The notes below the pieces were generated by a model. The model did no database searches, had not been told where the DNA came from, and worked only from the letters and a program-made list of their open reading frames with translations. Both the position numbers and the translations under genes were made by a program. From positions 1-42,714 of IMG/VR virus record IMGVR_UViG_3300031999_000060: a DNA stretch of 42,714 nucleotides. One strand, given 5' to 3'. Of this stretch, positions 2,994 to 42,714 are shown in pieces (positions within the stretch are counted from its first letter, which is position 1; every line of letters starts with the position of its first letter). The DNA comes from a virus.

Positions 2994-3226
2994 TGAAGTG
3001 GGAGGAAGTCAAAAATTTAGGTTCGGCGCATTATAAATCCGGTCTGGTCGAACCCCTTGATCTTTATAAATCCGGAAACATGCTCCAGGATTGGGTGATC
3101 GGCGAAATTATGCAGCATGCCTATCGCAATCGGACGCAACTTTGTAAAAAGATCTCCATCCAGGATATGGAGAAAATCAAACATTTTGCGGAAATCTTAA
3201 TTTCCTTCGCTGAGGAGAATATCTAA
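2993..3226 (+). CDS. Small phage protein, DUF3310-like pattern
   Basis: The 77-residue product starts in a TAATG overlap with the phosphoesterase stop. Its N-terminal half reads HYKSG..EPLDLYKSGNMLQDW then IMQHAYRNR. This resembles the HY...EPiD.i...g.l..Fa...IikYa.R layout of DUF3310-type phage proteins found near nucleotide metabolism genes, although the usual Lys-rich ending differs. It is mostly helical, with no membrane segment. It is translationally coupled to its neighbours on both sides by single-base overlaps. The function is unknown. Confidence 0.55.
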   Translation: MKWEEVKNLGSAHYKSGLVEPLDLYKSGNMLQDWVIGEIMQHAYRNRTQLCKKISIQDMEKIKHFAEILISFAEENI

Positions 3227-3417
3227 TGCCAGGACAAAAACAGGGTAAAAGGGGTTCCCGGAAGATTGGGCGCAATAAGACCAAATGCGGTCGATATAAG
3301 TTAGAAGGCCGACGCGAGAAGAATAAAAAGCGCCGGATCGCAACCCAAAAACGCAAAGAAGAAAAGAAACGCAAGAAATTAGAACTTAGAAAAGGAGACG
3401 ACAATGCTCAGATTTAG
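3226..3417 (+). CDS. Very basic small phage protein (KGSRKIGRN type)
   Basis: This 63-residue protein is about half Lys and Arg. It opens with KQGKRGSRKIGRNKTKCGRY, a motif seen in small proteins between tail genes of many environmental phages. The C-terminal half is a Lys/Glu/Arg-rich helix. The start is in a TAATG overlap with the preceding gene, and the end overlaps the next gene by 14 bases. The charge suggests nucleic-acid or ribosome binding, but that is inferred from composition only. I know of no assigned function. Confidence 0.55.
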   Translation: MPGQKQGKRGSRKIGRNKTKCGRYKLEGRREKNKKRRIATQKRKEEKKRKKLELRKGDDNAQI

Positions 3418-4168
3418 TACAGGTTTAAGACAATATCTACAAGGCGGAGGCTGCATGCGTAAAGCCTTCTGCGATTCGATCCTGAAGATCTATTCAGGAG
3501 TGGCCCCAGCCACGGCGGATCTCGCTGCCCCGAGTGGAGATCTACTTGTGGAAATAACGAAGGCATCTGGATCTTATTCTCATGATGCGGTTTCCACGGC
3601 CAAGCAGTCCTTAGTCACCATCACTGCTTACGCCCAAGGTAATAAGAATATCATTGTAATCGACGGAGTAACATTTTCGTACACTGCTCTCGGATCGTCC
3701 TCAGTCACCATAATTGCCACGGCATTAGTGGCATTAATAGACGCAGACTTAACGATCTCAGTTTGTGCCTCGTCCCAAGCGGGTTTGATCCATATCAAAT
3801 CCAAATTCCCCGGGGAAGAATATACTATTACGGTAAGTGCGGGGGATGGGGGCGGTGCAGCGCCGGGACTAAGCGAAAATTCTCCGGCAAAATCGCGCAT
3901 CGATGCTCTTCATTTGGGTGTTCCGGCTGCGGGCGTGATCGCCAAAGAAACAGGGTATGCTTGGTCCGGTGAAATAACACAGACGGGAACGGCTGGTTAT
4001 TTCCGTTTAGTCCAGACCACGGATGATGGTGATGAAAACGATGATGATATTCGTCTCCAGGGCAATATCTCGACTTCGGGGGCCGAATTGAATCTGAGTA
4101 ATCTAAACCTGGTTGATGGTGCCACACTCACTATCGATACGTTCCAGTTGACCGAACCGGCTGCATAA
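3404..4168 (+). CDS. Phage tail/virion structural protein, 254 aa
   Basis: The ATG at 3404 follows an AAAGGAGACGACA ribosome binding site. The protein begins MLRFSTGLRQYLQGGGCM and then ILKIYSGVAPATAD. This pattern (RFSTGLR...G...., then IYSG..P..AD, then a G-L-L-EIT-like strand) recurs in small structural proteins encoded after the connector in environmental podoviruses. The rest is beta-rich with Thr, Ser and Ala and no Cys after residue 124, as expected of a virion surface or tail decoration protein. The 4980 gene has a comparable architecture. The role within the tail is not defined. Confidence 0.55.
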   Translation: MLRFSTGLRQYLQGGGCMRKAFCDSILKIYSGVAPATADLAAPSGDLLVEITKASGSYSHDAVSTAKQSLVTITAYAQGNKNIIVIDGVTFSYTALGSSSVTIIATALVALIDADLTISVCASSQAGLIHIKSKFPGEEYTITVSAGDGGGAAPGLSENSPAKSRIDALHLGVPAAGVIAKETGYAWSGEITQTGTAGYFRLVQTTDDGDENDDDIRLQGNISTSGAELNLSNLNLVDGATLTIDTFQLTEPAA

Positions 4169-4175
4169 ATATTAT

Positions 4176-4249
4176 AGCAGGATAGTTCAGTGGTAGAACA
4201 CAGGGCCCATACCCCTGAGTCAGGAGTTCGATTCTCCTTCCTGCATCCA
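4176..4249 (+). tRNA. tRNA with CAT anticodon and initiator-tRNA features
   Basis: A complete 74-base cloverleaf can be folded. The acceptor (4176-4182 with 4239-4245) has an A1xA72 mismatch followed by G2:C71 and C3:G70. The D stem is GTTC/GAAC, and the anticodon stem is CAGGG/CCCTG around loop CCCATAC, with the anticodon CAT at 4208-4210. The T arm is AGGAG/CTCCT with loop TTCGATT, and the gene-encoded CCA is at 4247-4249. Three consecutive G:C pairs in the anticodon stem and an unpaired 1:72 position are hallmarks of bacterial initiator tRNA. Odd points are C33 in place of the near-universal U33, T73 as discriminator and a T11:A24 pair as in elongators. Elongator Met or lysidine-type Ile remain possible. 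Confidence 0.8.
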
Positions 4250-4276
4250 TCCCTCTCTTAAAGGAGAAATACCAAG

Positions 4277-5005
4277 GTGCCAGCAAAAGGGCAGAAACTT
4301 TCTGCTGAAACCAGACTAAAAATTAGTTTGGGAAATAAAGGAAAATCCAGAAAAGGCCATCCGTTTTCCAAGGAAGTTGCTATTCGTTTCGGGATAGAAC
4401 GCAAAGGGTCTGGTAACCCCATGTTTGGAAAACATCATTCAGAAGAGACTGGGAAAAAGATGTCGGCCAGTCACATAGGAATGAAATGTCCTTGGATTAC
4501 CGAAATGCTTCTTGGTAAACCGAATGTTAATTTAGGAAGAAAACGGACAGAGGAACAGAAGAAAAAACTTCGTGGGCGTATTCCATGGAATAAAGGCAAA
4601 CCTAATCCTTTATTTTGTGGAAAAAATAATCCCAAGTGGAAAGATGGTATTTCATTAGACAAAAAACGATATATGAAAATCTGCCGAGATAAACGGCGGG
4701 CCAAAAAGAAAGGTAATGGTGGAGATTATAGACCGGCGGATTGGGAAGTCCTCAAAAAACGCTATGGCAATACATGTCCTATCTGTCTAAAATCAGAACC
4801 GGAGATTCAATTAACACCTGATCACATAGTGCCGATTTCTCTTGGTGGATCAAATTTTATCGAGAATATTCAACCTCTTTGTATGAAATGCAATTTAAAA
4901 AAACATCAAAAAGTTTTTAAAATTAATTCGGGGGGACAATTTGAAATAGTCTTTTCTGTTCCTCCAAAGGAGATCTTCGATGGCCGTAAGTTCTGTCTTA
5001 AGTAA
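4277..5005 (+). CDS. NUMOD3-HNH homing endonuclease
   Basis: This 242-residue protein has a GTG start 9 bases after an AAAGGAG site. NUMOD3-like DNA-binding segments occupy the N-terminal half (residues about 5-25 and 38-60, the latter containing GNPMFGKHHSEETGKKMS, and again near 85-115). An HNH nuclease follows at about 165-205: CPIC, then LTPDHIVPISLGGSNFIENI, then QPLCMKCN. These are features of free-standing homing endonucleases that nick DNA and copy themselves into phage genomes. It lies directly after the tRNA and overlaps the next structural gene by 26 bases, and that gene's ribosome binding site lies inside its last codons. The pattern suggests insertion of a tRNA-endonuclease unit between two tail genes. 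Confidence 0.85.
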   Translation: MPAKGQKLSAETRLKISLGNKGKSRKGHPFSKEVAIRFGIERKGSGNPMFGKHHSEETGKKMSASHIGMKCPWITEMLLGKPNVNLGRKRTEEQKKKLRGRIPWNKGKPNPLFCGKNNPKWKDGISLDKKRYMKICRDKRRAKKKGNGGDYRPADWEVLKKRYGNTCPICLKSEPEIQLTPDHIVPISLGGSNFIENIQPLCMKCNLKKHQKVFKINSGGQFEIVFSVPPKEIFDGRKFCLK

Positions 5006-5663
5006 TCATTTTAAGTATCAGCGGGACAAAGGACTGATCAATCTTTTAACGGACAGCATAAAAGTCCTACTCATGCGCACACTCTTTACTTTTAACAAAG
5101 ATTCCCATGCCGCGCTGATCAATGTCAAGACGACGAGTGGGGTCATTTCCTCGCTGACCTTCGCTAATACTGGAAATACTCTCACCCGGGGGGCCGGCAA
5201 TTTCATCACCAATGGCTTTGTGGTCGGGATGCGGATCACGACCAATTCCGCCAATCCAAACAATCAAGGACCGTTCTTGATTTCTGTTTTAGCCCAGAGT
5301 GTTCTTACGGTCACAGATATGGCTGGCGCAGACCCCACGCTAACGACCGGGACCGCAAGCAATGTCACCGTGACCGGGAATGATGAATTGCCCACGAGTG
5401 GAGGATATACAGCCGATGATATGGTCTTAACTGGCCAGACCTTGACCGAAGACAATAGTGCCGATGTTAGTGTCATGCTCTGCGATGATGTGTCTTGGAC
5501 GGGAACGCCTGGCGGCTTTGGCCCGGCAGCCGGCGCCATCCTATACGATGATGAATCCACATCCGGTTATACCATTATCGGCTATCTCAACTTTGGCACC
5601 GATCAGACTGTAGCCGAAGGCGCGAGCCTTATTCTCGAAGGATTAGGCATTCAATCGGCTTAG
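4980..5663 (+). CDS. Phage virion structural protein, 227 aa
   Basis: The start follows an AAAGGAGATCTTCG site that lies inside the homing-endonuclease gene. The opening, LSNHFKYQRDKGLINLLTDS then IKVLLMRTLFTFNKDSHA, matches a widespread family of small phage structural proteins (NHFKyql.kg.Idf..Dt.kv.LM...F.F.kd.Ha). The middle is Thr- and Gly-rich beta sequence (residues 55-120), and the C-terminus is again conserved (YTIIGYLNFGTDQT, then a G..L...gI end). It probably forms part of the tail tube or a tail accessory. The intact RBS shows that the upstream insertion did not disturb its expression. Confidence 0.6.
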   Translation: MAVSSVLSNHFKYQRDKGLINLLTDSIKVLLMRTLFTFNKDSHAALINVKTTSGVISSLTFANTGNTLTRGAGNFITNGFVVGMRITTNSANPNNQGPFLISVLAQSVLTVTDMAGADPTLTTGTASNVTVTGNDELPTSGGYTADDMVLTGQTLTEDNSADVSVMLCDDVSWTGTPGGFGPAAGAILYDDESTSGYTIIGYLNFGTDQTVAEGASLILEGLGIQSA

Positions 5664-5698
5664 ATTTTCACTGTGCTGATTTTTGAGGGAGTTTCCTG

Positions 5699-7225
5699 AT
5701 GGCCTACGACCCATATACCAAATCCCTGTTGCACTTTAACGGGGTCAATCAAAGTCAGGTCTTTACTGACGAATTGGGAAGCGTGTGGACTGCCACCGGG
5801 ACTTCGCAGTTAGACACTGCGGTAAAAGTCTTCGGAAGTGCCTCCATGCACAATACCGGGAACGGGAATTATATTTCCGCTCCTTTTAATGCTGCGTTGA
5901 ATCCGGGGACGGGAAACTTTACTTTAGATTTCAGATTTAAGTGGAATGGAAACCCGGCGTCCGCCGCATTCTTCCAGATGGGTCCATCTAATAGCGACGG
6001 TTGTAAATTAATTTGGGTTAGCAACACCTTAAATTTTACCATTAATAATACAGGTTACAATTTCGCTTGGACCCCATCAGCATCTACCTGGTATCATATT
6101 GCCATAACAAGACAGGCGGGAACTTTACGGGCATGGGTAGATGGCGCCCAAAAGGGAGCGGATACGACCGGTGCGGGGGATATAAGCCCTGCCAGCGGTA
6201 CTATGTATATCGGCCATTATATCGGCGTCGGTTATGAACCAAATGCTTGGTTCGATGAACTCCGTTGGAGCAATGGAATAGCCCGCTGGTCCACCACCTT
6301 CGATCCACCATTTTATGAGTATGGCGGATCGCTATTCGTTTCTGACTCCAGTATCGTCATTCCGACAGTAACCAATCAAATGACGATAACGGCAGAGAAG
6401 TTTTGGGCCCTTGGCTCCCTGGTTATCCCCACTCTTTATAATGAGGCCTGGACGGGAGATGCCGATAATGATCTACCCGTTTTAACGTGCGTAGCAACTG
6501 GGCATGACGGAACGGCGGAATTATCCGTTACTCTTCCAAATATCACGATCTCCGCCACTGGATTAACCGGCGGAATCGGAAGTCTCTCGCAAACTTTGCA
6601 TGGTTTAACTATACAATCGCATGGTTTAACCGGTCAAATCGGACAACTGATTGCGACTCTTCCAACCCTAATTATTGCGGCAACCGGTTCCATCGAAAGA
6701 CATGGAACTCTGGCCATAACCCTGCCCCTCTTCTATATCAATGCCCACGGGGAATACACTCCGCTGGGTCCGATATATCGCGTGACGGTTTTAAATCCCA
6801 AAAATATGGCGGTGACTGAATATGACCTCTTCGATTTCAATTCCTTCGGATTTTTCAATGGCATACTTCTTGGGGCAAAGTCAGACGGAATTTATCCGCT
6901 GGCTGGAGAAAATGATGAAGGAACGGCCATCGATGCCTCCTGGATGCTCGGCCAATTCCTTCTCGACATCCTTCGCCCAAGGGATCTCTATATCTTCGGA
7001 CGAGGAGGCGGAAGCTATAAGACAATCATCGTAGGAGATGAGGATACCGAAAACGAAGTGACAGTGAGTTATCTCCTATCCAATCTAAACGAGGAACGGG
7101 TGAAACTGCCCAGGGGCCTGGAGCCCACTTACATGCAGATCGGATTCGAGAACGTGGATGGCGCGGACTTCGAGATCGACTCCATCCAGGTCTATGCACA
7201 GAAGATGAGGACTGCGAGAAAATAA
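5699..7225 (+). CDS. Tail fibre-like protein with LamG domain and tandem repeats
   Basis: Residues about 1-205 form a concanavalin/laminin-G type jellyroll. The signs are LHFNG at the start, then FTLDFRFKWNG, TWYHIAITRQ, LRAWVDG and WFDELRWSNGIARW. Such domains bind sugars or glycoproteins, so a receptor- or surface-binding role is likely. Residues about 270-355 hold four tandem 21-residue beta repeats (G.L..TLP.L.I.A.G). The C-terminal 150 residues (YRVTVLNPKNMAVTEYDLFD onwards) form a separate domain, perhaps for attachment to the tail. It starts after a GAGGGAG site and overlaps the next gene in TAATG. Its position after small tail proteins agrees with a fibre or tail-tip protein. Confidence 0.7.
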   Translation: MAYDPYTKSLLHFNGVNQSQVFTDELGSVWTATGTSQLDTAVKVFGSASMHNTGNGNYISAPFNAALNPGTGNFTLDFRFKWNGNPASAAFFQMGPSNSDGCKLIWVSNTLNFTINNTGYNFAWTPSASTWYHIAITRQAGTLRAWVDGAQKGADTTGAGDISPASGTMYIGHYIGVGYEPNAWFDELRWSNGIARWSTTFDPPFYEYGGSLFVSDSSIVIPTVTNQMTITAEKFWALGSLVIPTLYNEAWTGDADNDLPVLTCVATGHDGTAELSVTLPNITISATGLTGGIGSLSQTLHGLTIQSHGLTGQIGQLIATLPTLIIAATGSIERHGTLAITLPLFYINAHGEYTPLGPIYRVTVLNPKNMAVTEYDLFDFNSFGFFNGILLGAKSDGIYPLAGENDEGTAIDASWMLGQFLLDILRPRDLYIFGRGGGSYKTIIVGDEDTENEVTVSYLLSNLNEERVKLPRGLEPTYMQIGFENVDGADFEIDSIQVYAQKMRTARK

Positions 7226-21705: not shown

Positions 21706-22046
21706 TTTAAAAGCCAATCCTTCCTTAAGCATTCTGCTTCGTACTGCCTCATAAAATTGGCGATTATCTTTGGCTCGATGTAGGCCAATCGAATAGACTT
21801 GCGCAAGGCAAAAGCCATACAGAAATCCCCAAAGGCTCCCGGGCTTCTCTGGTCCCAAACAAAATAGATCACGTCAGCCCATTCGATTTTCGCCCGATTT
21901 GCTGCCATGATCATAAGTTCAGTAACCTTGGAAGTATGATTATCCAAAACTGGCAATACTACGTCATGCCCCTCCTCCTCCAAAGAGCATCTAAGTGTAA
22001 GCATTTTTTCTAAAAACTGCGTACTGCCCATGATTGCAATTTTCAT
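21702..22046 (-). CDS. Nucleoside 2-deoxyribosyltransferase-like protein
   Basis: This 114-residue protein opens with a beta-alpha unit (MKIAIMGSTQF). It then shows DVVLPVLDNHT, and near residues 56-85 ADVIYFVWDQRSPGAFGDFCMAFALRKSI, here read as two pieces ADVIYFVWDQ and GAFGDFCMAFAL. That is the ...aD.v......s.G...E...A...gK layout of nucleoside 2-deoxyribosyltransferases and their DUF4406 relatives, but with Asp in place of the nucleophilic Glu. Members swap bases on deoxynucleosides or act on NAD-related molecules. The substituted residue makes catalysis uncertain. It is coupled to the RNA ligase gene by four bases. Confidence 0.6.
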   Translation of the reverse strand: MKIAIMGSTQFLEKMLTLRCSLEEEGHDVVLPVLDNHTSKVTELMIMAANRAKIEWADVIYFVWDQRSPGAFGDFCMAFALRKSIRLAYIEPKIIANFMRQYEAECLRKDWLLK

Positions 22047-22618
22047 TCTTCTTTTACTCCCTTCGGTAATTCATCCTTTTCTAAAGTTTTTTTAAACATA
22101 AGATTCCCTGCCGTATGATAGATCACGATGCCTTCCGGTTTCATAAATCCTGGGGCTGCATGACTACCCAGGGCCCTTAAGGTCTCTAGACCTTGATGCA
22201 CAGTTGTGGTGCAGAATTCACCGCGAATAATCTCCGGTACAACATAACAGCAAGTTGGACGGACAAAAGGATCACCCCACCTTTTGAGATTGAACAGGGA
22301 GAATCTTTTCTCCTTGAGTCCATACCCACGCTGAATGCCCTGTCCCCACCACTCACCGAAGTGGAAACCGGGACCAAGACGCATCAGTTCTAAGACATTC
22401 CCATATGCCCATTTTGCAAATCCGTGGTTGTCATCCTCTGGACTGATCCATCGGGAGCGAGAACCGCAGAGAAACGGAACGATTCTACCCGAGTCAGGAG
22501 TAATGGCATCAAAGTTATCGGCAATATAAATACACCCATTCGTCCCGTCGATCTTCTCCGTGATGATGCACTCCCGAGAATATCTTGGAATTTTAGAGAA
22601 TCCCACAAATTCAATCAT
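22043..22618 (-). CDS. RNA ligase (Rnl2/DRB0094-like nucleotidyltransferase)
   Basis: The 191-residue protein contains the covalent nucleotidyltransferase motifs in order. Motif I is TEKIDGTN with the AMP-accepting Lys at residue 22. FHFGEWWG is at 85-92, RFSLFNLKRW at 105-114 (motif III), PEGIVIY at 161-167 (motif IV) and MFKKTL at 174-179 (motif V, Lys 176/177). These build the core of RNA ligases that seal nicks in RNA, so it should be catalytically competent. There is no OB or C-terminal partner domain, and it is short. The two tRNAs and a metallophosphoesterase in the same element make tRNA or RNA repair a reasonable role. It starts in an eight-base overlap after GGGAGAACTCAA. Confidence 0.85.
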   Translation of the reverse strand: MIEFVGFSKIPRYSRECIITEKIDGTNGCIYIADNFDAITPDSGRIVPFLCGSRSRWISPEDDNHGFAKWAYGNVLELMRLGPGFHFGEWWGQGIQRGYGLKEKRFSLFNLKRWGDPFVRPTCCYVVPEIIRGEFCTTTVHQGLETLRALGSHAAPGFMKPEGIVIYHTAGNLMFKKTLEKDELPKGVKEE

Positions 22619-23353: not shown

Positions 23354-23427
23354 TGGGGTGCCCCATGGGACTCGAACCCACCTTTGCAGGGCCACAGCCT
23401 ACCGTCCTACCGCTGAACGAGGGGCAC
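23354..23427 (-). tRNA. tRNA-His (GTG)
   Basis: The minus strand folds into a full cloverleaf. Acceptor GTGCCCC/GGGGCAC is followed by C73 and an encoded CCA. The D stem is GTTC/GGAC, and the anticodon stem is GTAGG/CCTGC with loop CTGTGGC, so the anticodon is GTG (His). The T arm is GTGGG/CCCAT with loop TTCGAGT. C73 is the His identity base, but the base before G1 is A in DNA, so the usual G-1 that pairs with C73 would have to be added or is absent. It lies inside the early operon between a 30-codon gene and a small gene. Confidence 0.9.
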
Positions 23428-24470: not shown

Positions 24471-24892
24471 CCTTCCTCTTTTGGGGGTCTTACCCCTCTT
24501 TTCTTGTAATACCAAGCCAAATTATTGATCCGGATGTTTTTTGTCCGGCACTCAGAACCGCATATCTCCTGTTTAGGAAAACATAAAAGAGTGAATTCTT
24601 TCTTACAGACCTTACAGATGAAAAACCGGATCTTCTTCTTAGGCTTTGGCATTTGTCGATTCTTGGTACAGTAAACCTTTTGAAAGATTTCGATTGGAAC
24701 ATCATCCAGACGACTCGGGACTTTAAAATAATATTCATTGGAGAACCCACAAATGCAGGCCACCCGACCACTTCCAAGATTCAGGCGTTCCTGAAATAGT
24801 TTCCTGCCACACTTTGGACAAATCATCGTCTCCAATAGATCGAGCCTGAGAGGGGGAATGATCGGATTTTCTGGTTCTGGAATTACTTGCAT
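24467..24892 (-). CDS. Zinc-ribbon protein, 141 aa
   Basis: The ATG overlaps the preceding stop region by 10 bases. The protein has a CPKC (residue 25 region) with CICGFSNEYY, then CKVCKKEFTLLCF and CGSECRTKN, which is two or three zinc-binding Cys pairs. A Lys-rich middle and a Tyr-Lys-rich end (NNLAWYYKKRGVRPPKEEG) suggest nucleic-acid binding. The second part looks like the C..C....C..C of HNH-adjacent or small-subunit zinc ribbons. It is translationally coupled to the DUF5131 gene, so the two products may act together. The function is unknown. Confidence 0.6.
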   Translation of the reverse strand: MQVIPEPENPIIPPLRLDLLETMICPKCGRKLFQERLNLGSGRVACICGFSNEYYFKVPSRLDDVPIEIFQKVYCTKNRQMPKPKKKIRFFICKVCKKEFTLLCFPKQEICGSECRTKNIRINNLAWYYKKRGVRPPKEEG

Positions 24893-25782
24893 ATCGGTAA
24901 CTCGCTACACTCTTTTCCATCGAGAAGACGGCCAGCGGTTTTTTTGCCGATGCGATAAACCTCTTGGTAATCACCAAATGGTTGTGTTCCCCTTCCTTCC
25001 CATGTGGCAGCATCAAAAATTCTTGCCTGTGATGCGCCTACCCATTCCCCCCATTGTTTAAAGTAAAATGGCACCCCCGCCTCCTGGCATTGATCCCTGA
25101 CCGATCTTGCCCAATCCGGGTGCATCGGCCTTGCGCCTGGGCCGGACTCTCCGCCGAGGACTACCCACTTAATCAATCGTTTTAATTTCCATGAACCCCA
25201 TAGGCAATTTATGTATTCGTTAAGTTTGAGATCGATAGGGCCTAACATCGGCTCAATAGAGAGCCACCTAACCGTTGCCGGTATCTTCACTAATTCGCGG
25301 ATTTTCCTATCTGCCTCTCCCTGGTTTACGATCGTCACCCCGGGCCAAACATTTGGGATATAGTCTCCTCCGCCCAATTTTATTCCATAAAGTTTTCCCT
25401 TTATCAGAGTTGCCCTTTTTGTGAGCAATAGAAAAATATGTTGAGGGCAGACCTCCATCACATCAAGGGCCTGGTCGATAAAGCTATTCGGCACTTGCTT
25501 ATGAAAAAGATCATTAAGGATCAGCCAGGACTGTGGTTTTTTGGTGCGGAGGGGAAGGTCAAGATTACTTTCTCTCAGACGAATTTCCCCTGTCCATCCG
25601 ATCCTTGACATCGTTGTTAATTGAGCCACCGGAAGATGAATTTTTGGATTTGGATTAAAGGCCATTCTCGTTGATTCTCTTGCACTCCAGCAATGTTCAC
25701 AACCAGGAGAACACGGGGTACAACCGTCCACCAGGCGCCATAGTCGATCCCAATAAATCCCTTGACCGATTCGATCAAACAT
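24883..25782 (-). CDS. DUF5131 (Gp37/Gp68) radical-SAM-like protein
   Basis: I chose the ATG at 25782 because AAGGTGGTAAAA precedes it. A GTG at 25791 overlaps that site. The 299-residue protein has a Cys cluster at residues 21-31 (GCTPCSPGCEHCW) that fits the iron-sulphur ligands of this family, which was first noted in mycobacteriophage Gp37/Gp68. Further blocks are RMAFNPNPKIHL, WTGEIRLRESNLDL, FLLLTKRATLIK, RWLSIEPMLGPIDL and WVVLGGESGPGARPM, with the typical GWxE-like signature region (YFKQWGEW). The family is radical-SAM related, but its reaction is not known to me. It stands between an ASCH gene and a zinc-ribbon gene. Confidence 0.85.
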   Translation of the reverse strand: MFDRIGQGIYWDRLWRLVDGCTPCSPGCEHCWSARESTRMAFNPNPKIHLPVAQLTTMSRIGWTGEIRLRESNLDLPLRTKKPQSWLILNDLFHKQVPNSFIDQALDVMEVCPQHIFLLLTKRATLIKGKLYGIKLGGGDYIPNVWPGVTIVNQGEADRKIRELVKIPATVRWLSIEPMLGPIDLKLNEYINCLWGSWKLKRLIKWVVLGGESGPGARPMHPDWARSVRDQCQEAGVPFYFKQWGEWVGASQARIFDAATWEGRGTQPFGDYQEVYRIGKKTAGRLLDGKECSELPICK

Positions 25783-25784
25783 TT

Positions 25785-26135
25785 TTACCACCTTATTAAG
25801 AGGCCGCAGAATGGAAGTCTGCCTTTAAAGAAATCAAACATCTCGGCCCAAGTGCTGAACCCATCCGCATGAGCCAAGGATTCACGTTCATCTGGATCAA
25901 GATAAATGCCCCGGTACTGAACTAAACTCGAACTCCATATCTCGATTCCCTCAACGGAATAACATGTTCTTCCACCCAAACTACGAACGGCTTTAGTTCT
26001 AAGTCCTACGTATAGGTATAGAAGATCTCCCATTTTTGGATCTCTACCATCTTTTCGTTTTGCGCGAATGGTCTGTCTTTTAAGGTCTAATTCTATGGCC
26101 CGAACAAATCTTGGTTGAAAATTAAGGGCTGGCAT
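25785..26135 (-). CDS. ASCH-domain protein, 116 aa
   Basis: The N-terminal ALNFQPRFVRAIELDLKRQT then IRAKRKDGRDPKMGDLLYLY has the ASCH pattern: F...f...I..G.K.qTIR.kR....GD.l.ly. ASCH domains are small beta-barrels that bind RNA or modified nucleotides. Several ASCH proteins are nucleotide- or nucleoside-processing enzymes. It overlaps the resolvase gene by 14 bases and abuts the DUF5131 gene. Its genomic neighbours suggest RNA or nucleotide modification, but the substrate is unknown. Confidence 0.72.
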   Translation of the reverse strand: MPALNFQPRFVRAIELDLKRQTIRAKRKDGRDPKMGDLLYLYVGLRTKAVRSLGGRTCYSVEGIEIWSSSLVQYRGIYLDPDERESLAHADGFSTWAEMFDFFKGRLPFCGLLIRW

Positions 26136-34172: not shown

Positions 34173-34508
34173 ATGATCCAAGAAAATTTGGGCAAAAGGC
34201 TTACCAGGCAAGAACTCTCATCTGTTCTCGGGCTGAATTACAGAACAATCTGTGACCACTATGAAGACCTAGGCGGAATTCGGATAGGTAATCGATACCT
34301 TTTCTTTGAAAAGAATGTAATCCATGCCATACAAAAGGGGATCAATGTGGGTGGGCGAGGTCCGGCGGGGACGGCAGAGGATTCAGAAGTTATTCGGGTC
34401 CAAGAGGAAGGCGCTGGATTGGGAGAAAGACCAAAAAGACATTCCCGCCGAAAACTGGAAGATCGCCACGGAATCTTCCTTGGGCGAAATGGCTCTCGAC
34501 TATCTTGA
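34173..34508 (+). CDS. Small HTH (excisionase-like) protein overlapping the integrase
   Basis: The ATG at 34173 is eight bases after the -10 region and has no ribosome binding site. A TTG six bases earlier is possible. Residues 1-60 carry a helix-turn-helix: GKRLTRQELSSVLGLNYRTI, then HYEDLGGIRIGNRYLFFEKN, as in MerR/excisionase-like phage proteins. Residues 62-111 are Gly/Arg/Glu-rich, and their DNA lies inside the integrase gene in another frame, over 185 bases. An excisionase or integrase regulator is the likely role. Expression of the whole 111 residues is not certain. Confidence 0.55.
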   Translation: MIQENLGKRLTRQELSSVLGLNYRTICDHYEDLGGIRIGNRYLFFEKNVIHAIQKGINVGGRGPAGTAEDSEVIRVQEEGAGLGERPKRHSRRKLEDRHGIFLGRNGSRLS

Positions 34509-35313
34509 TTATTCCAAATCAAAACATTCAGCAAAAACGTACCAGACTAAAAAATCAGTCTTTGGACGATTCTTCGTATATTCTGATCCGGATATTCCCC
34601 CAGATAAACTCCGCGCCGATCAAGTTTTCTTTTACTTACAGGATCAGTTTAAAAAACGCTCGGGATATGCAGCAAACAAGGACCGTAAAAACCTACTTGC
34701 TTTTACCTCATGGCTCTGGCGATACAAAGAAATACGATCTACCGCTGTTTCCTCTTGCGAAAGATTCCCCGAAGAACGCAGCCCCCGTTATATCCCCCCG
34801 GAAGAAGATTTCTGGAAAGTCTACGGAGAGGCGCCAACTCAAGATCAAGTAATGCTCCTCGCCTATCTGCATCTCGCGGCCAGGAGATCCGAACTCTTCC
34901 GGCTGAAGTGGGAGGATGTGGATTTTTCCCGCTCTCAAATCCGTCTGACCACCAGGAAAACCAAGGATGGCTCATGGAAGGCTCATTGGCTTCCCATGAC
35001 CCCAAGACTCTCCAGCGCCCTCTTAGATCATCGGCAGGGCCAAGACGAAAAGAATGAGCTGGTCTTTTTAGATCCTCGCACAAACCTCCCTTATGTGAAC
35101 CGATTACACCGGATGCACGATCTCTGCCAAAAAGCCGGAGTAAAGTTTTTCGGATTTCACGCGATAAGACATTTAACGGCTTCGCTCTTGGCCAAGGCAG
35201 GGGTGCCCATGATCACCATACAGCAAATCCTTCGCCACGAATCATTGGCGACGACGGAGCGATACCTGCACAGCTTGGGGGATCTACGGCGAGCCTTGGA
35301 AAGTGTCTTTTGA
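34324..35313 (+). CDS. int: Tyrosine recombinase integrase
   Basis: This 329-residue integrase starts at MPYKRGSMWVGEVRRGRQRI, the usual arm-binding N-terminus of phage integrases. A core-binding helix bundle covers 50-140. The catalytic domain has Arg 187 (LAARRSEL), Lys 212 (TTRKTK), His 279 and Arg 282 (FHAIRHL), His 305 (LRHES) and the nucleophile Tyr 314 (TERYLHS). All five are present, so it should be active. It would recombine attP with the host attB. Five GAAGGCT repeats downstream, in a two-plus-one and two arrangement, are candidate arm sites. An alternative start at 34345 has an AGGGG site but would drop the first seven residues. Confidence 0.92.
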   Translation: MPYKRGSMWVGEVRRGRQRIQKLFGSKRKALDWEKDQKDIPAENWKIATESSLGEMALDYLDYSKSKHSAKTYQTKKSVFGRFFVYSDPDIPPDKLRADQVFFYLQDQFKKRSGYAANKDRKNLLAFTSWLWRYKEIRSTAVSSCERFPEERSPRYIPPEEDFWKVYGEAPTQDQVMLLAYLHLAARRSELFRLKWEDVDFSRSQIRLTTRKTKDGSWKAHWLPMTPRLSSALLDHRQGQDEKNELVFLDPRTNLPYVNRLHRMHDLCQKAGVKFFGFHAIRHLTASLLAKAGVPMITIQQILRHESLATTERYLHSLGDLRRALESVF

Positions 35314-39120: not shown

Positions 39121-40026
39121 TTAACTCAGGTCAAGGCTTCTCTTATACTGTCCGGTTACTTCGCTCACGTCATTCAGGTTCATGGCTTGCTTGGCTATCT
39201 CATGGGCAACATTCCCAAGCTCCCGTCTCAAGGTCTCATTGTCTCTTAAGTCTTTGGCAATTTCCTTCGAGTCGTGGCCGTTCATGTGTTTCCTAAGTTC
39301 GGCCAGCTTTTCGTCTATGCTATGGTCCCCGATAAAGTTCAACTCCTGGAAGTGCTCTATGGTTTCCTTTACGCTCTTGATGGTGTTGGCAGTGACTACC
39401 TCCCCATTGATAATCCGCGTTGATAATTTCTCACAGCTTTCGGCTACGGTGGCTCGCATGTCAATAACTACGTCTTCCAAGAATAAATCAAACTTCTCTT
39501 GAAGTTCTCTTTTAAAGCGCTCATAAGCTTCAATTACTTCCTGGCTTGTAGTCTCGTTCATTTTGGTATCTGTGATCTCGAAGATTGCCCAAGTAAAACT
39601 AAACTTCCTCTCAATGACATTGCGGGCCGGGTAGTATGGTTCCAGCTTGTCGGCGTAAAGCGGGTAGTTCTGAAGCATTTCCCTTTTTATTTGTTCATAG
39701 CGGTCCAGGAAACTTAAGACGGTGCTTTGAAATAATGCCTTGTACTGCTCCAAGTGGGCCGCGGTATCAACGAGCCTGTCTCGGGGAACAAAGCGGGCGC
39801 CACCTACCGGGAAAGGGAAACTCCAGCGGTCTAGGAAGTTCCTCGCATTGTTTTCAACCTGCGTGAAGCTATTCCTTTCATTCTCGGGGATAAGTAATTT
39901 CTTTCCGAGTCTCATAAAGTCCGGTATGTCCTCGGGGCTCAATCCCAAATCAGAGGGCTCCAGCTTCTTGGCTCCGCTCCATTTTGACACATTGAGTGTC
40001 AGCAAAACTCCATCCTTAAAATTCAT
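39121..40026 (-). CDS. DUF3150-like protein, 301 aa
   Basis: An AAAGGAGGTAAAAGAATT site precedes the ATG. The protein opens FKDGVLLTLNVSKWSGAKKL, followed by FMRLGKKLLIPENERNSFTQ and RWSFPFPVGGARFVPRDRLV. This fits DUF3150: an N-terminal .l...i..W.G.kkl..., then lGkk.l.p......, and G....gG...VP. The remaining 170 residues are a long helical region (FDLFLEDVVIDMRATVAESC; ELNFIGDHSIDEKLAELRKH). DUF3150 proteins are found beside MoxR/CobS-type AAA ATPases in phages and plasmids. Here it shares an operon with a Ycf46-type AAA, so it may be its substrate or adaptor. That is inference. Confidence 0.65.
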   Translation of the reverse strand: MNFKDGVLLTLNVSKWSGAKKLEPSDLGLSPEDIPDFMRLGKKLLIPENERNSFTQVENNARNFLDRWSFPFPVGGARFVPRDRLVDTAAHLEQYKALFQSTVLSFLDRYEQIKREMLQNYPLYADKLEPYYPARNVIERKFSFTWAIFEITDTKMNETTSQEVIEAYERFKRELQEKFDLFLEDVVIDMRATVAESCEKLSTRIINGEVVTANTIKSVKETIEHFQELNFIGDHSIDEKLAELRKHMNGHDSKEIAKDLRDNETLRRELGNVAHEIAKQAMNLNDVSEVTGQYKRSLDLS

Positions 40027-41148: not shown

Positions 41149-42567
41149 TTAGTTTATTCTCCTCCTTCCGCTTAGATTTACTGTCTCTTGATCAAGACTC
41201 GCGGGGATGGTTCTTTGTTTTGCCCATTGCCTCAAGGCTCCAATTTTATCCGCCATGCTTTGGGATAAGGGCATAACATAGGCTTCTGCTTCCTTGATGG
41301 TGGTTTGCATCATGGCTGCGATACGGCATAGGCTCTTTATCTCCGCTCCGCTCCATCCTTCGGTGGTAGTGGGTTCCCCTTCAACATGATATTGATGTTG
41401 ATAAAGGTCTAAGATGATTTTCCGCTCGCGGCTTGTAGGCAAGTCAACAAAGAAAATAGCATCCCATCGCTCAGCGCGTAGGAATTCGGGGGGTATTTTG
41501 GTAATGTCATTGCAGGTAGCAATAACAAACACTCGGCTTTTATGATCGTTTAGCCAGGTCAAGAAAGTCCCAAATACTCGGCTTCCGGTTCCTCCGTCTG
41601 TCTGTCCGCTCGATTGAATACCGCTTAAACCTTTTTCTATCTCGTCGATAAAGAGAATGCAGGGGCTAAAGGCGTCGATTATCTTGAGTGCTTCGCGGAT
41701 TCTACTTTCGCTCTCTCCCACCAGGCTTCCAAACATACGGCCAAAGTCGAGACCCGCGGTGGGGATGCCCAGGGCTTTTCCTAATCCCTTGGCAAAATGG
41801 CTCTTGCCAGTTCCTGGAGTCCCAAGCAATAACACTCCTTTGGCTAAAGGGCTGCGGGCTATCTTAAGGCAAAATTGCTTGAGGTTGTCTAATCCTCCCA
41901 AGTTCTCTAAGGTCTCGTCGTAGTTCTCAAGCATAAGGCTCGCGTTCTTCCTGATAAGCTGTGTTTTCTGCTCGACGATTACGGCGGGGTCAAACTTCTT
42001 CTTAGTTACTAGAGATAGGGCCAGCGCGTTTTCAAACTCGAATGAGGTCAAACCTTTCGCGGCTTCTAAGATAAGGTCGGTCTCTTCTTCGGTGGGCATG
42101 GGCATCTTGGCGGAGTCTGCCATATACATGAGAGTTTTTTTCAAGGTCTCTTTATCCGGTAGATCGAAGTTTAAGACGGTGAAAACTTTTTCAAGCTCGG
42201 TGGGGATTTCGACGATGGGCGCTAATACAATGATCGTTTTTCCGTTTGCCTTGTAAAGATCCACAAGGTTTAAAACTTCTTGAATATTTTCTATTACTTT
42301 GATGTATCTATGGAAATTGTGAAGGAAAAGAATCGCCCTTCCTTCCCCTGTTGCTCCGGTGGCTAAAAAGCCAATGGCTTTCAGCGGATCCGGTTCTTCC
42401 TTCTTAAAGGGGCCTTTTACCGCTCTAAATCCTTGCTGGCAATCCCACTGAAAAGGCTTGTAGCCTGCTTGGGCTGCTTCCTCTCCCCACTCGCTCACAG
42501 TCCTTTGAGACTCGCTCGTTTGTACCCATAGGGCGGGGAAGCCCGCTCTTAAGTGTTCTATAAACAT
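41149..42567 (-). CDS. Ycf46-like AAA ATPase
   Basis: I chose the ATG at 42567, preceded by AGGAGG (11 bases away). A TTG at 42606 extends the frame. The 472-residue protein has an N-terminal degenerate AAA-like region (residues 1-190) and a canonical AAA domain: Walker A GTPGTGKS at 249-256, FGSLVGESESRIREAL at 279-294, Walker B CILFIDEIEKG at 303-313, sensor-1 Asn 353 in IATCNDI, and arginines 364/367 in EFLRAERWD. This two-part pattern is that of Ycf46 ATPases of cyanobacteria and plastids. All ATPase residues are present. It is the first complete gene of the operon that carries DUF1257 and DUF2997. Confidence 0.85.
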   Translation of the reverse strand: MFIEHLRAGFPALWVQTSESQRTVSEWGEEAAQAGYKPFQWDCQQGFRAVKGPFKKEEPDPLKAIGFLATGATGEGRAILFLHNFHRYIKVIENIQEVLNLVDLYKANGKTIIVLAPIVEIPTELEKVFTVLNFDLPDKETLKKTLMYMADSAKMPMPTEEETDLILEAAKGLTSFEFENALALSLVTKKKFDPAVIVEQKTQLIRKNASLMLENYDETLENLGGLDNLKQFCLKIARSPLAKGVLLLGTPGTGKSHFAKGLGKALGIPTAGLDFGRMFGSLVGESESRIREALKIIDAFSPCILFIDEIEKGLSGIQSSGQTDGGTGSRVFGTFLTWLNDHKSRVFVIATCNDITKIPPEFLRAERWDAIFFVDLPTSRERKIILDLYQHQYHVEGEPTTTEGWSGAEIKSLCRIAAMMQTTIKEAEAYVMPLSQSMADKIGALRQWAKQRTIPASLDQETVNLSGRRRIN

Positions 42568-42714
42568 AATCTTTACTTCCTCCTTTCTTGGCCTCTTCGC
42601 ACTCAATAGCTAATTCTCCATCAGGGCCAATTTTCTGGAGTATGCTTTTTAGGTGATCTTTCCATTTTCGATCAGTGGATACAACTTGCCCAACTTCATA
42701 CTTATCGCGAACTG
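42425..42714 (-). CDS. C-terminal part of a gene entering from the right (doubtful extent)
   Basis: The only frame open from the right edge of the window on the minus strand runs to a TAG at 42425. It reads KYEVGQVVSTDRKWKDHLKS, ILQKIGPDGELAIECEEAKK, and so on. The first 50 codons look coding. The last 47 lie in the AAA gene in another frame and look like noise, so the true end or a frameshift is uncertain. It would be the gene that precedes the AAA ATPase in the operon. Confidence 0.3.
   Translation of the reverse strand, partial: VRDKYEVGQVVSTDRKWKDHLKSILQKIGPDGELAIECEEAKKGGSKDYVYRTLKSGLPRPMGTNERVSKDCERVGRGSSPSRLQAFSVGLPARI

Follow-up and report, generated by a model that had tools for sequence, protein, structure and literature searches.

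The tRNA gene at positions 4176-4249 of the window (the whole stretch of viral DNA that was analyzed, 42,714 nucleotides) probably encodes an initiator-like tRNA, atypical in its body, which would sustain translation initiation during infection. In the proposed scheme, this tRNA and an HNH homing-type endonuclease gene would have entered a temperate phage together, within its structural operon (Table 1). The source, a 42.7 kb IMG/VR virus record, is a temperate, tailed phage with structural genes, a tyrosine integrase, a CI-like repressor and RecE/RecT.

Table 1. The tRNA-HNH cassette, its flanking genes and the phage integrase, in window coordinates.
Feature	Position	Strand	Evidence
Upstream flank, virion structural protein	3404..4168	+	PHROG 3758; ends 7 bp before the tRNA
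Inserted cassette (tRNA and HNH gene) between two structural genes	4169..4979		Missing in four related phages
CAU tRNA gene with encoded CCA; acceptor end and anticodon stem of initiator-like type	4176..4249	+	ARAGORN, Rfam, position parse, covariance models, fold
HNH endonuclease gene, NUMOD3 motif (homing-type), GTG start	4277..5005	+	Pfam HNH_5, HNH and NUMOD3 above cut-off
Downstream flank in structural region	4980..5663	+	PHROG 644; overlaps the end of the HNH ORF
Tyrosine integrase	34324..35313	+	Pfam Phage_integrase, PHROG integrase

Structure and classification of the tRNA

ARAGORN identified the gene as tRNA-Met(CAT), and the Rfam tRNA family (RF00005) matched positions 4176-4246 (59 bits, E 2.2e-10). 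Folding by minimum free energy gave the cloverleaf; of 200 shuffles, 3 folded equally well. The tRNA gene is genuine.

In the position parse, the acceptor stem (AGCAGGA/TCCTGCA) opens with an unpaired A1xA72, followed by G2:C71, C3:G70, A4:U69, G5:C68, G6:C67 and A7:U66. The D stem (GTTC/GAAC) gives U11:A24. The anticodon arm (CAGGG-CCCATAC-CCCTG) has three G:C pairs in its stem (G29:C41, G30:C40 and G31:C39) and the loop C32 C33 C34 A35 U36 A37 C38; the variable loop is four nucleotides long, and the discriminator, U73, is followed by an encoded CCA. The parse recovered every element that a sequence-only reading of this DNA had named (the CAT anticodon, A1xA72, G2:C71, C3:G70, the three G:C anticodon-stem pairs, C33 and T11:A24), and added U73, C38 and the four-base variable loop, which that reading had overlooked.

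The principal determinant of formylation is the 1:72 mismatch, with A73, G2:C71, C3:G70 and G4:C69 making minor contributions (PMC9976931). The tRNA at 4176-4249 has the CAU anticodon, no Watson-Crick pair at 1:72, G2:C71 with C3:G70, and G:C pairs at 29:41, 30:40 and 31:39, as expected of an initiator. It has U11:A24 in place of the R11:Y24 of initiators, U73 in place of A73, and A:U rather than the initiator G:C at 4:69. As R11:Y24 and A73 are both missing, it is classed as a variant and not as a canonical bacterial initiator. Both are minor features. The interpretation in the sequence-only reading was partly supported, and stood for the main bacterial initiator elements. The description of T11:A24 as non-standard was revised, as U11:A24 is the ordinary elongator type (Y11:R24) and is unusual for a bacterial initiator alone. 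U73 could weaken charging or formylation of the tRNA.

Separate covariance models were built for bacterial initiators, for elongator Met tRNAs and for Ile2 tRNAs. The tRNA scored 62.6 bits with the initiator model, 56.0 with elongator Met and 44.9 with Ile2, so that with these models the comparison suggested in the earlier reading, against elongator Met and Ile2, did not count against the initiator, which led by 6.6 and 17.7 bits, respectively. The margin over elongator Met is modest; with the same initiator model, genuine bacterial initiators score ~99-102 bits and some elongators ~62-65. A cruder, host-only profile, lightly smoothed and trained on a highly uniform set of initiators, placed elongator Met ahead by 22 bits. 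The D and T arms accounted for most of this lead; the acceptor component of the profile favored the initiator by 15 bits. Support for initiator identity is therefore moderate. In a 19-class profile that left out the anticodon arms and included phage tRNAs, the initiator class came first, narrowly above Ala, and the CAU elongators fell outside the top seven; with phage initiators in the training set, this ranking is partly circular at 1:72. Taken by part, the 19-class profile assigned the acceptor clearly to the initiator class and placed the D arm nearest to Gly.

It is unlikely that the gene encodes an elongator tRNA-Met with an atypical body, mismatched at 1:72 by chance and adding to the Met-tRNA available for elongation. 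The elongator-like D and T arms, the overall preference of the host-only profile, the missing R11:Y24 and A73, and C38, which is seen in Met elongators of Bacilli, are all in keeping with such a tRNA. The covariance models favor the initiator, however, and A1xA72 stands where an elongator tRNA-Met has a paired 1:72, a mismatch that is rare in other phage tRNAs (see below). The conjunction of a 1x72 mismatch, a GGG/CCC stem and G2:C71 with C3:G70 occurs here on a CAU tRNA and was found in 0 of 486 non-CAU tRNAs (first loci fetched), among which the three features occur singly at 1.2%, 0.6% and 7%, respectively.

A tRNA-Ile2, in which the CAU anticodon would be modified to lysidine, is highly improbable. 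The anticodon would suit it, and C33 is found in some Erysipelotrichaceae Ile2 tRNAs; however, the Ile2 model trails the initiator model by the 17.7 bits given above, the acceptor stem is different, and the G1:C72 pair and A73 of Ile2 tRNAs are both absent. Genes resembling tRNA-Ile2 with C33 for U33 were seen at eight loci (L049, L071, L090, L106, L111, L112, L123 and L125), which belong to Erysipelotrichaceae and related Bacilli, lineages whose initiators have C33.

The body of the tRNA has some likeness to tRNA-Gly. Its D arm comes nearest to that of tRNA-Gly, it has the glycine discriminator in U73, and its variable loop and T arm match those of a phage tRNA-Gly without a difference over 21 nt; with the anticodon arm left out, the closest tRNA is a phage tRNA-Gly (81%). 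Remoulding from tRNA-Gly was considered and is suggestive only, the T arm not singling out Gly.

Initiator-type CAU tRNAs in phages and the occurrence of C33

CAU tRNAs with a GGG/CCC stem were found in at least 190 IMG/VR contigs. The C33 form of the initiator pattern matched in 73 viral contigs and the U33 form in at least 120, both patterns being blind to position 1:72 and some of the contigs counted possibly holding bacterial DNA or att sites. Position 1:72 is constrained across these phage relatives: it is unpaired in 115 of 149 distinct viral GGG/CCC-stem CAU tRNAs. The corresponding figures are 10 of 34 for the remaining viral CAU tRNAs (Fisher p 2e-7) and 6 of 365 for viral tRNAs with other anticodons. 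Thirty-two of the viral GGG/CCC CAU tRNAs have a D stem like that of the tRNA at 4176-4249; in 24 of these 1:72 is unpaired and six more have U1:A72 (p 3e-26 for the 1:72 comparison with viral non-CAU tRNAs), so elongator-type D stems occur in phage initiator-type tRNAs.

The features in which the tRNA departs from bacterial initiators recur in this group. Among GGG-type CAU tRNAs, Y11:R24 is present in 55 of 149 viral and 1 of 74 host genes, A73 is missing in 15 of 149 viral and none of 74 host genes, and U73 is found in 12 of 149 and 0 of 74, respectively. Phages appear to retain an unpaired 1:72 and the G:C pairs of the anticodon stem while freely shedding R11:Y24 and sometimes A73. By its sequence, the tRNA at 4176-4249 is an extreme yet recognisable member of the phage GGG-type CAU group. 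Beyond an identical copy in a phage of 98% DNA identity, its nearest relative is a phage tRNA (L134) with 78% identity.

Among cultured phages, 345 records matched E. coli tRNA-fMet at E <1e-3, and most of the matches listed are annotated as tRNA-Met. Ten of the cultured-phage matches were parsed along with earlier hits; several have a 1:72 mismatch and some have the GGG stem too. The tRNA-Met of Escherichia phage ESCO13 (L324, 1146-1224), which has A1xC72, A11:U24 and U73 and is without the GGG stem, scored 64.4 with the initiator covariance model and 52.1 with the elongator model. A tRNA-fMet is annotated in Caulobacter phage CcrSC, and tRNA-fMet has been described in Sinorhizobium phiLM21-like prophages (PMC12429752). 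Initiator-type tRNAs in phages therefore appear to be fairly common and are often annotated merely as tRNA-Met; a phage tRNA of this type is not exceptional, contrary to the framing of the sequence-only reading. These tRNAs also bear on the statement of van den Berg et al. that, in Shigella, phages generally avoid tRNA-fMet where VapC cuts tRNA-fMet (PMC10264068).

C33, which had been regarded as odd, is likewise widespread. The C33 form of the initiator occurs in many bacterial genomes, including Weissella and Leuconostoc relatives, Erysipelotrichaceae and Phycisphaerales, as well as in the viral contigs above, and it is known from eukaryotic initiators (PMC9023262). Among initiator-pattern matches, it accounts for 12 of 13 in Omnitrophota, 1 of 48 in Planctomycetota and 1 of 33 in Pseudomonadota; in 5 of 9 genomes checked, the lone match to the pattern is the C33 form. 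Across these lineages C33 is a recurring property of initiators, and it would be consistent with initiators having no need for A-site decoding. C33 alone was dropped as a sign of decay, because it is usual in the initiators of Omnitrophota and is the sole pattern match in several other genomes.

The inserted cassette and its phage

The two genes that flank the tRNA and the HNH gene were compared with those of four related phages (L318, L319, L476 and L477). In these, homologues of the downstream gene (47-73% identical) directly follow the homologue of the upstream gene, at a distance of 15-38 bp and with neither tRNA nor HNH gene between them; the tRNA and HNH gene are therefore an insertion of ~0.8 kb. 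The closest relative (98% DNA identity) has an identical tRNA and the HNH gene, and is the sole relative found with the tRNA gene. The HNH part of the window has a GC content of 38%, against 47-50% around it, and its product belongs to the PHROG HNH/endonuclease VII annotation. The earlier observation that an endonuclease directly follows the tRNA was confirmed and can be extended, as both belong to the insertion. GTG and TTG starts, by contrast, are not a feature of the operon as had been supposed: of the main plus-strand structural-operon ORFs, 13 start with ATG, and GTG is confined to the HNH gene.

The tRNA is co-oriented with the structural operon. A match to a promoter of its own (TTGACC-16-TATTAT, 4148-4175) was not credited, because transcription would start inside the tRNA. 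A general partnership between this HNH family and initiator tRNAs was also considered and is unsupported: family members lie near 5 of 222 initiator-type tRNAs, compared with 1.7% at random positions, which is no enrichment, and tRNAs were found nearby in 1 of 12 other HNH relatives (L345). A blastn search of positions 3000-6500 against cultured phages returned no match. The downstream flanking gene had no match in 35 Omnitrophota genomes, an empty answer that shows little about the host.

The insertion raises the question of whether the tRNA is a passenger, partly decayed and carried by a homing endonuclease cassette with no role in translation. Its absence from relatives other than the one close relative would accord with this, as would the joint occurrence of U73, C33, C38 and a short variable loop, which is unusual. 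Against it, the stems are intact, CCA is encoded and the best fold is the cloverleaf; moreover, decay is an unlikely source of the initiator combination, and the same combination is found in many phages. A passenger tRNA is therefore judged decidedly improbable.

The temperate lifestyle suggests another role, tRNA-dependent lysogeny, in which integration of the phage would disrupt a host CAU tRNA gene that is not rebuilt, the loss being made good by the phage tRNA. Lysogeny of this kind is an established mechanism, for which attB sites of the Ile2-CAT and Met-CAT types have been described (PMC10865867). The phage has a tyrosine integrase, and a scan for the tRNA 3'-half motif (TTCRANTC) beside the integrase gene found none, which is also the case in phages whose core is ~10 bp; this role would also be compatible with initiator identity of the tRNA. 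However, the gene lies 30 kb from the integrase, in the structural operon and beside an HNH gene, related phages exist without it, and a second phage tRNA, tRNA-His, is an equally good candidate. This explanation is accordingly quite unlikely. An attP overlapping the tRNA was sought and rejected, as no sequence of at least 11 bp in the vicinity of the integrase is shared with the tRNA.

The tRNA-His(GTG) gene (23354-23427, minus strand) has an encoded CCA and U33; with A as the genomic base at -1, it does not itself supply the G-1 that most HisRS enzymes require. About 0.7 kb from it lies a gene for a 191-residue RNA ligase (22043-22618, minus strand; PF09414, PHROG 548) with a KIDGTNG (KxDG) motif, which may possibly serve as a tRNA-repair counter-defence. 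Elsewhere on the minus strand, PADLOC weakly matched an AAA ATPase (41149-42606), accompanied by a DUF3150 protein (39121-40026), to IetA models, and matched a DUF5131 protein (24883-25791) to the candidate defence models PDC-M41B and PDC-M30B.

Proposed function and comparison with known systems

As far as its sequence tells, the tRNA at 4176-4249 should behave as an initiator. Its CAU anticodon would lead to charging with methionine by MetRS, and the unpaired 1:72 beside G2:C71 and C3:G70 would allow formylation. A 1x72 mismatch disfavors use by EF-Tu, and here would also keep the tRNA off that factor, while the three G:C anticodon-stem pairs would admit it to the ribosomal P site. Direct entry of an initiator into the P site is the proposed reason why C33 and C38 can be tolerated; these two bases may also blunt anticodon-loop nucleases. 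If expressed during infection, the extra initiator could benefit the phage by keeping its messages initiating when the host initiator is limiting, or has fallen victim to a toxin or defence enzyme that cuts or modifies it.

The site at which VapC toxins cleave initiator tRNA lies between the anticodon stem and loop, and growth under VapC is partly rescued by extra copies of the initiator operon (PMC8522696). Anticodon-loop changes are frequent in phage tRNAs (PMC10264068). The RNA ligase gene with its KxDG motif, in the same phage, provides supporting context for the idea of a damaged host initiator. Replacement of a nuclease-damaged host initiator by this tRNA, as put forward in the sequence-only reading, is retained as a hypothesis. 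A broader and rather doubtful extension is that phages have repeatedly built initiators on elongator bodies, made toxin-resistant through C33 and C38 and spreading on endonuclease cassettes as a counter-defence; the parts retained on such elongator bodies would be the 1:72 mismatch, G2:C71/C3:G70 and the GGG/CCC stem only. Should the initiator function proposed for the tRNA at 4176-4249 be true, it would show which identity elements are sufficient for initiation in nature. It also raises the questions of whether translation initiation is captured or protected by phages, and whether they resist toxins that cut initiator tRNA.

Several known systems resemble parts of this arrangement. Fionnbharth, which exhibits tRNA-dependent lysogeny, is likewise temperate, with a tyrosine integrase, a phage tRNA and no tRNA half (at attP in Fionnbharth, by the integrase here); the Fionnbharth tRNA is of the isotype disrupted at attB. 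In T4/T6, as here, a free-standing endonuclease gene, segB, lies beside phage tRNA; there, the tRNA locus is amplified with the help of SegB (PMC13096335), an endonuclease distinct from the HNH/NUMOD3 protein.

With bacterial tRNA-fMet, the tRNA shares the CAU anticodon, unpaired 1:72, G2:C71, C3:G70 and the GGG/CCC stem, and differs in U11:A24, U73, A4:U69, C38 and the 4-nt variable loop. Other initiator-like phage CAU tRNAs are those of CcrSC, the phiLM21-like prophages, Mycobacterium phages Gizmo and Myrna, Pseudomonas phage pf16 and Prevotella phage Lak-B5. The parsed initiator-like tRNAs of cultured phages retain A11:U24, unlike the tRNA at 4176-4249, with the exception of Rhizobium phage B1VFA (C11:G24); the more elongator-like tRNA of Vibrio phage 2.275.O has U11:A24, as here. 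Most of the parsed cultured-phage tRNAs have A73, with U73 in ESCO13, avDM3 and Vibrio 2.275.O, and all have U33, in contrast to the C33 of the present tRNA. A parallel in gene arrangement is phiLM21, in which an HNH gene adjoins tRNA-fMet (PMC12429752), as one adjoins the tRNA at 4176-4249.
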